Shown piece by piece: positions 27,425-29,368 of a stretch of DNA of 33,805 nt. The notes under the pieces were generated by a model that made no database searches, had not been told where the DNA came from, and saw only the letters and a list, made by a program, of their open reading frames with translations. A program made the translations under genes and the position numbers. This DNA comes from Pseudomonadota bacterium (lineage in GTDB: Bacteria > SAR324 > NAC60-12), in NCBI GenBank assembly GCA_004213175.1, contig SHAT01000021.1, positions 1 through 33,805 on the forward strand. The letters are read 5' to 3'. How positions within the stretch are numbered: the first letter of the stretch is position 1; every line of letters starts with the position of its first letter.

Positions 27425-29368
27425 ATGATGACAAAAACAAAATCAAAACCTAACAAGAAAATTTTCAAAAATCTATGCAGATTTTTTCTACCAATATTCT
27501 TTTTCTGTTTTATCTTAACTTTGCTTGCCCCTGCATTTTCCCTTCAGGCACAGGAAAGGGTAAAATCACTTAGCATACGTCAATTTGAAATTGAGGAGGC
27601 AATTCGCAATGGGCTTAAGTATTACCTTGATCCGAAGGATTACGTGCTGCGAGTAAAACTATTTGGGGAAGAACGTGCGGTTAGTATGGCAAACGAAACT
27701 CTCCCTGGTTTTGGACAGTTGAATGACCCTTCCAGTACAAGCGGAGCGAAATATTGGCAGATTACGAGGATGAGGGTCGATCTGGTAATGCATAAAGAAG
27801 TTTCACCTTCAGTCAATTCCTATATCGGTGAAATTGTACCCATACTCAGTGGGCTCGATTATGATCGCGGTGATGAACTTATTTTTGTGCCGATCCTTCC
27901 AAGTGAGCCTTTTCCGGAAAAACTAGAAAAACCTGCAGAAGCAGAAGGATTACCTGATCCGATGGCGGAAGCTGTTACAGAAGATGAAAAAGCAAAAAAG
28001 GGCGAACAAAAAACGGAAGCTGATTCAGCAGTTGAAGAAGCCGAAAAATTGCTCGAAGAAGAACCTTTCTGGTTGAAAATGAGTGATATTGAAAAAATAC
28101 TAGCCGGAATGCTGATTTTTCTTATACTTTTGTTTTTTTGGGTCCTATGGAAATTAAAAAAGGTCAAAGAAAATGTCAGCACAGAACAAATTGGTTATCC
28201 TGCTCTAATGCCACCTAATACAAATAATCATCAACTACCCTCCACTCCTGATCAGGGTTTGGTTTCAATTCCAGGTCCGATTGACAAGCTGGTTGAAAGT
28301 GATGGACATCCAGAATATAAAGTGAACAATACCATGTTGAACGAGGAGAATGAAAGTCTTGTTCAGGAAATTATTAAGCAGCTCATAGGTCGTGATGACT
28401 GGAAACAAGAGCTTGTGCATGAGATGTCACGCGATAAACAATCAATGGAAATGCTTACCCAACTTATTGCAACGTTTGGAATGAGTGCTTCAAGGACACT
28501 CTTTGCAGGTACTATCCCTCAAAAAACATTTTTGGAACTTGAAAAGTTGGCAGAAGATTCTGATCTGTCTCCAGAAGATGCAAACTCTGTTTTAAAGGAC
28601 GTTCAGAAATTTTTACTCACCAAACAGTTGACGGATCCCGAAGAAAACAAAACAAATCCATTCGGATTCATGGAACAGTTAACTACATCACAAATCGGAT
28701 TTTTGATCAAAGAAGAACCTGCAAAAATAAAAGCCTTCGTTATTGTAAGGATGGAAAGTGAGGAAGCAGCCGAATTACTTCGTGAGCTGCCAAAAGACGA
28801 ACGCACCAAAGTAGCATTGGAAATGGGAAAACTACACGAACTTCCACTTGAGCTGGTAGAAAAGATTGGCAACAACCTCGCTGAAAAAGCGAGATCTGTT
28901 CCAGATGAGGGCACGGTAGGAGTTGATGGAGTTAAATTCATTGCAGACGTGCTCAGTGATCTAGATAACTCAACCAGAGATGAATTGATCAATGGTTTGC
29001 GTACCTCAGATATTAAAATGAGTGATAACATAGAAAGTAACTGCTTTATTTTTGACTCACTTCCGGATGTGCCTAAAGATATTTTGTTGGAAGTAGTCCG
29101 TAAAATACAACCTGATTCAGTAATTACTGCGATTTCAGGTTCTACCACAAAAATAAAAGAGTCAGTAATTATGTGTTTCCCTGAAAAAAGTCGTGCTGCC
29201 TTGGTTTCTTCACTAAAAACAAAAACTCCGGAAATAGAAGAAATCCGGGAAGCACGAAAATTATTTACGATGTCTATGCGAGAAATGGCTGATGCAGGGA
29301 AACTCGATTTGAAAGAAGTTAATTCGAAATTCTCAAATAATAACAGCCCAGCCGAAGCTGCTGCTTAG
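27425..29368 (+). CDS. Membrane protein with FliF-RBM3-like periplasmic module, TM helix, and FliG-like cytoplasmic domain
   Basis: 647 aa; signal/anchor, module SIRQFEIEEAIRNGLKYYLDPKDYVLRVKL...LDYDRGDELIFVPI, TM ILAGMLIFLILLFFWVLW, then FLIKEEPAKIKAFVIVRMESEEAAELLRELPKDERTKVALEM...GVDGVKFIADVLSDLDNSTRDELINGL...CFIFDSLPDVPKDILLEVVRKI (FliG middle/C-like). Confidence 0.8.
   Translation: MMTKTKSKPNKKIFKNLCRFFLPIFFFCFILTLLAPAFSLQAQERVKSLSIRQFEIEEAIRNGLKYYLDPKDYVLRVKLFGEERAVSMANETLPGFGQLNDPSSTSGAKYWQITRMRVDLVMHKEVSPSVNSYIGEIVPILSGLDYDRGDELIFVPILPSEPFPEKLEKPAEAEGLPDPMAEAVTEDEKAKKGEQKTEADSAVEEAEKLLEEEPFWLKMSDIEKILAGMLIFLILLFFWVLWKLKKVKENVSTEQIGYPALMPPNTNNHQLPSTPDQGLVSIPGPIDKLVESDGHPEYKVNNTMLNEENESLVQEIIKQLIGRDDWKQELVHEMSRDKQSMEMLTQLIATFGMSASRTLFAGTIPQKTFLELEKLAEDSDLSPEDANSVLKDVQKFLLTKQLTDPEENKTNPFGFMEQLTTSQIGFLIKEEPAKIKAFVIVRMESEEAAELLRELPKDERTKVALEMGKLHELPLELVEKIGNNLAEKARSVPDEGTVGVDGVKFIADVLSDLDNSTRDELINGLRTSDIKMSDNIESNCFIFDSLPDVPKDILLEVVRKIQPDSVITAISGSTTKIKESVIMCFPEKSRAALVSSLKTKTPEIEEIREARKLFTMSMREMADAGKLDLKEVNSKFSNNNSPAEAAA

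Follow-up and report, generated by a model that had tools for sequence, protein, structure and literature searches.

Finding FliG in a genome is commonly read as a sign of flagella, and rotor proteins that occur without filaments are an open puzzle: 11% of non-motile species carry rotor proteins without filament proteins, for which an alternative function has been raised (PMC12199754). The window analyzed here (the whole stretch of 33,805 nucleotides, a contig of a 2.27 Mb genome of a marine SAR324 bacterium that is 83% complete) encodes a FliG-like protein, designated FliG*. A preliminary description held that FliG* lacks most of the charged torque residues of FliG and suggested a structural, non-rotary or differently energised ring. 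Since canonical FliG, FliF, and MotA are present in the genome too, the FliG* system is an extra one. What, then, does this second FliG belong to?

The FliG* gene (27425..29368, + strand) encodes a protein of 647 aa with a signal peptide, a periplasmic FliF-RBM3-like domain, a transmembrane helix, and a full cytoplasmic FliG (N-M-C). The FliG_M (28688..28906, +; aa 422-494, 51 bits) and FliG_C (28994..29311, +; aa 524-629, 53 bits) domains both exceeded the curated Pfam cut-offs, and FliG_N gave a weaker match. Residues 411-628 were aligned with the solved MC domains of T. maritima FliG (phmmer, 1lkv, E 1e-14), and the 13 best PDB matches of the AlphaFold model of aa 301-647 were exclusively FliGs (Foldseek). 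The C domain of the model superposed on T. maritima FliG_C with 1.9 Å over 88 columns and on MotAB-bound FliG (8ucs) with 2.1 Å; mean pLDDT was 66 for the cytoplasmic part and about 80-88 for the C domain. A full-length model built from five sequences had a mean pLDDT of 50 and was taken for secondary structure alone.

The N-terminal part of FliG* appears to be related to FliF, by way of its neighbors. Its periplasmic domain (aa 45-165; 27557..27919, +), predicted to fold as helix-strand-strand-helix-strand, matched the two RBM copies of a lipoprotein encoded upstream (hhalign, P 1.5e-9 and 6e-8) and the RBM/TPR protein encoded next to it (P=1.6e-6). The direct match to FliF was weak (P 0.005), so the homology depends on the intermediate lipoprotein; one orthologue (G040) gave a direct but weak FliF_C match. 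The transmembrane helix lies at about aa 222-243 (28088..28153, +; Kyte-Doolittle windows up to 2.45; model helix 221-249). FliG* has one signal-like N-terminal segment, one transmembrane segment, and a single RBM-like domain, and the two transmembrane segments that flank RBM1-3 in FliF are absent.

We next turned to the torque-helix region (AISG...FPEKSRAALVSSLKTKTPEIE; 29129..29239, +), for which 27 SAR324 FliG* orthologues and 21 canonical SAR324 FliGs were compared by profile and multiple alignment. The replacements proposed earlier of K264 by serine (S571), R281 by lysine (K588), and D288/D289 by a serine pair (S595/S596) were all recovered, but R297 is not replaced by isoleucine; a one-residue gap puts it against E603. 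The substitutions are conserved in orthologues. The K264 column of FliG* holds S, Q, T, A, or V and the D288 and D289 columns hold S/T/N and S/A/T, respectively, so that K264, D288, and D289 are kept in 0/27 proteins. The R297 column is acidic in 21 and S/N/T in six, its basic residue being lost in 27/27, and the R281 column holds K (15), Q (9), or R (3). In the canonical proteins, by contrast, K264, D/E at 288, D289, and K/R at the R297 site are found in 21/21, with R (20) or K (1) at R281; the window genome's own canonical FliG has K, R, DD, and K at these sites. This comparison of canonical protein and paralogue within one lineage rules out chance or misalignment as the source of the substitutions.

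Most of the old charges are thus gone, as had been claimed, but the region is not devoid of charge: FliG* has invariant residues of its own (E587 and R590, within FPE..R), and acids cluster where R297 used to be. Given this invariant motif and the D/E found at position 297 in 21/27 proteins, the helix is re-patterned rather than neutral. The adjacent domain has also changed. The EHPQ(R) motif of FliG binds FliM (PMC3091841); EHPQ is found in 21/21 canonical FliGs and 0/27 FliG* proteins (aligned as EPAKI in the window), and its loss suggests that FliG* would operate without a FliM/FliN switch.

Identity of FliG* to canonical FliG is about 18-21%, and one relative (G005) has in-frame stops, both of which would fit a FliG copy decaying under relaxed constraint. 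However, orthologues were found in SAR324 and 'Deltaproteobacteria' MAGs with 29-86% identity over their length, nearly all are intact, the operon is conserved, and columns including FPE..R are invariant. A pseudogene is ruled out by these features, and we regard decay, a reading already contradicted, as extremely improbable.

FliG* is the last gene of a cassette (23889-29368) that holds four FliF-RBM3-like domains over three proteins, together with a predicted outer-membrane protein. The first gene (23889..24887, +) encodes a beta-barrel-like protein with a signal peptide and a weak PF13505 match, and its upstream position is conserved in relatives. It is followed by the lipoprotein (24924..26246, +; lipobox LSGC, as read from the sequence), which has two FliF-C/RBM3-like domains (PF08345, YscJ_FliF_C, above cut-off) and a C-terminal TPR region, and which matched the canonical SAR324 FliF profile (hhalign, P=1e-7; second RBM copy, 7e-4). 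The third gene (26250..27422, +) encodes a periplasmic protein with an RBM-like domain and TPR matches in Pfam, and its profile matched that of the lipoprotein (P=8e-12). The gaps between the last three genes are 2-3 bases. Elsewhere in the window, a signal-peptide protein with repeated KTPDEQIAEMATRISKEI / KITFDGGTVKNMAKRISEQI units is encoded at 8909-10237, and tandem FliL paralogues (14101-14598 and 14683-15213) are followed by FliN, FliO, and FliP.

In seven SAR324 loci the cassette is flanked by genes for two proteins designated MotA* (MotA_ExbB, about 320 aa) and MotB* (MotB_plug/OmpA, about 215 aa). The window genome has such a pair on another contig (C9), besides its canonical MotA. 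Among 52 SAR324-lineage genomes, 26 carry both FliG* and MotA*, two FliG* only, four MotA* only, and 20 neither. Outside the window's genus the corresponding numbers are 15, 0, 1, and 19 (Fisher p 5e-9, uncorrected for phylogeny), and the pattern covers three families. MotA* matched solved flagellar MotA/PomA structures and is closer to MotA/PomA than to ExbB/TolQ, with a best score of 135 bits against the NCBIfam MotA/MotP/PomA equivalogs (cut-off, 394). The counterpart of R90 and, eight residues on, an acid at the counterpart of E98 are found in 29/29 MotA* proteins; MotB* keeps the plug Asp along with MotB_plug and OmpA-like domains. Compared with canonical MotA, MotA* (e.g., L087:8718-9686) has some 45 additional residues between its first two transmembrane segments. 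In a MotA tree, SAR324 MotA* grouped with SAR324 stators and not with those of other phyla, with long branches that leave the deep placement uncertain; since this grouping differs from that of FliG, the SAR324 stator and rotor seem to have different histories. Judged from genome content and sequence, MotA*/MotB* is the evolutionary partner of FliG*.

The partner stator bears on what kind of ring FliG* forms. A ring that serves only as structure or scaffold, with its motor function lost, would account for the disappearance of the primary MotA-contact acids D288/D289 and of K264 in 27/27 SAR324 orthologues. Yet the same helix has gained conserved charges, and FliG* co-occurs strongly, and in several families adjacently, with a dedicated stator that still has R90, E98(D), and the plug Asp. 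Moreover, alanine at the equivalents of D288, D289, and R281 (D308A/D309A/R301A), introduced singly, left rotation speed normal in a Vibrio/E. coli chimeric motor (PMC6079164), so a ring without the torque charges need not be non-rotary. We therefore consider a scaffold quite unlikely, and the non-rotary ring proposed in the preliminary description is not upheld. Nor is its differently energised alternative: because FliG* is paired with a MotAB-type ion channel, the difference would lie at the rotor-stator interface and not in energisation. FliG* probably works like a FliG rotor.

A second alternative assigns FliG* and MotA*B* to the ordinary flagellar motor of SAR324, as accessories such as an extra ring or a second stator. 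FliG*-bearing SAR324 genomes generally carry canonical FliG and FliF too, and flagellar fliL-fliL-fliN-fliO-fliP genes lie 6-13 kb upstream in the window. In the window's genus, MotA*B* is on another contig near a flagellin gene, which fits a second flagellar stator and speaks against a separate machine (L087:8078-9686 and L087:11080-12690; the flagellin gene is a few kb off, and the FliG* cassette is not adjacent). On the other hand, many SAR324 genomes with flagellar FliF have neither FliG* nor MotA*, and none of the 27 FliG* proteins retains EHPQ for FliM binding.

Relatives beyond SAR324 weigh further against an accessory role. Profile searches found FliG*-related proteins in other phyla. 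In one of them this FliG was present in 66/100 genomes, and a single gene order, TPR-MotA-MotB-FliF_C/TM-FliG, was seen in 20/20 loci examined in that phylum, with FliF_C detected directly (E 1e-8) in the RBM/TM protein of the operon. FlhA above cut-off was absent in 15/20 of these operon genomes, 14 of the 15 being at least 90% complete, and neither FlhA nor FliP was found in five further genomes of other families. Homologous MotA-MotB-RBM/TM-FliG operons thus occur in genomes without FlhA or FliP, and the accessory-part explanation is unlikely, if less so than a scaffold. The FliGs of 22 operon loci beyond SAR324 retain K264 and have mostly lost D288/D289 by deletion, with an acidic pair in 7/22; since the same site is replaced in FliG*, its rewriting is recurrent in non-flagellar FliGs.

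Other gene sets were noted during this survey. A second non-flagellar SAR324 set (L098:8098-9729, 7235-8101, and 5575-7146, - strand; also L047, L097, L099, and L100) combines MotA2 with a FliG-like protein of 543 aa that has diverged strongly and with a long MotB2, the periplasmic part of which has a weak Calx-beta match. A third FliG-MotA-MotB set (L044:7884-12510 and L103:5366-9490) occurs in one large SAR324-family genome (G021) and adjoins the gene of a protein of 1410 aa with carboxypeptidase-regulatory-like domains. One genome without flagellar export genes encodes a PorV-like barrel fused to TPRs.

In a maximum-likelihood tree, the flagellar FliGs of all sampled phyla formed one clade (98/99) and every FliG* fell outside it; the tree was midpoint-rooted and has long branches, so deep placements are uncertain. 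FliG* also scored 66.1 bits against NCBIfam TIGR00207, the flagellar FliG equivalog, below its cut-off of 226.7 bits. Considering this score, the absent EHPQ motif, and the position outside the flagellar clade, FliG* was not classed as a flagellar FliG. The evidence supports a FliG ring protein that is diverged, anchored in the membrane, and separate from its flagellar counterpart, and a lineage outside the flagellar clade bears on the modular assembly of the flagellar motor.

Given the related gene sets in bacteria without flagellar export genes, FliG* is probably part of an undescribed motor machine. We consider it likely, from sequence comparisons, that FliG* forms, as its subunit, the inner-membrane ring of an ion-driven machine that is made of flagellar motor parts but is not a flagellum. 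With somewhat less assurance, but still leaning in its favor, we propose a class of undescribed envelope machines with stacked FliF-RBM3/TPR rings, a FliG rotor, and dedicated MotAB, free of dependence on flagellar export, present in SAR324 and several other phyla (many members without flagella), and built on a FliG lineage that split early from flagellar FliG. In such a machine, RBM3 domains would build stacked rings from the inner to the outer membrane. MotA* pentamers, turning round MotB* dimers fixed to the peptidoglycan, would push the FliG* ring, and the RBM/TPR rings would pass the force to the outer membrane, where it would power gliding, secretion, or another surface process. Contact between stator and rotor would be re-patterned, with MotA* keeping R90 and the acid at E98, and the rotor side presenting K588 and the new E587/R590/acidic-297 pattern in place of D288/D289/K264/R297. 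The sequences themselves show which domains and partners are present, how they are conserved, and that they occur without export genes; from these we infer that rings assemble, that they rotate, and that force reaches the outer membrane. The outer-membrane protein of the cassette and the PorV-like barrel/TPR fusion hint at a surface function compatible with gliding or secretion. The system would also serve as a natural test of which charges are needed at the MotA-FliG interface.

The MotA/MotB, FliG, and FliF domains are known parts, and their combination outside flagella is undescribed in the open literature found; in open PMC text, the only description found of a FliG-like ring outside flagella was the Chlamydia FliF-FliG fusion. 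We also considered the 'hat-like' inner-membrane structure (PMC9380563) but set it aside, as no link from it to FliG or MotAB was found. The nearest system is the flagellar motor. FliF-FliG with MotA5-MotB2 shares with the FliG* system the FliG fold and, probably, the FliF-C/RBM3-like ring domain, and flagellar MotA/MotB shares MotA R90 with the acid at E98, the plug Asp of MotB, and the OmpA-like domain. Unlike the flagellar motor, the FliG* system has its FliF-like and FliG parts fused (or otherwise split), has lost D288/D289/K264/R297 and EHPQ, has no tied export apparatus, includes TPR and lipoprotein ring partners, and occurs without FlhA/FliP. The Chlamydia protein resembles FliG* in that a FliF-related membrane protein is naturally fused to FliG. 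In that fusion, however, the SpoIIIAG-like (RBM3) domain is absent, FliG_M alone is present, and a partnership with MotAB is not described (PMC4768692), whereas FliG* keeps a putative RBM3-like domain and the full FliG N-M-C, with MotAB. AglRQS/Glt of Myxococcus and GldLM of Bacteroidota likewise have MotAB-like ion-driven stators coupled to envelope proteins and outer-membrane partners (PMC9389320); in the accounts given there they have no FliG ring, unlike the FliG* system. Finally, the work on rotor homologues in non-motile species (PMC12199754) names no system, whereas here there are a conserved operon, a dedicated stator, and ring proteins. A conserved FliG/MotAB/FliF-RBM operon in genomes that lack flagellar export genes thus gives the rotor proteins that lack a filament a concrete, testable machine.
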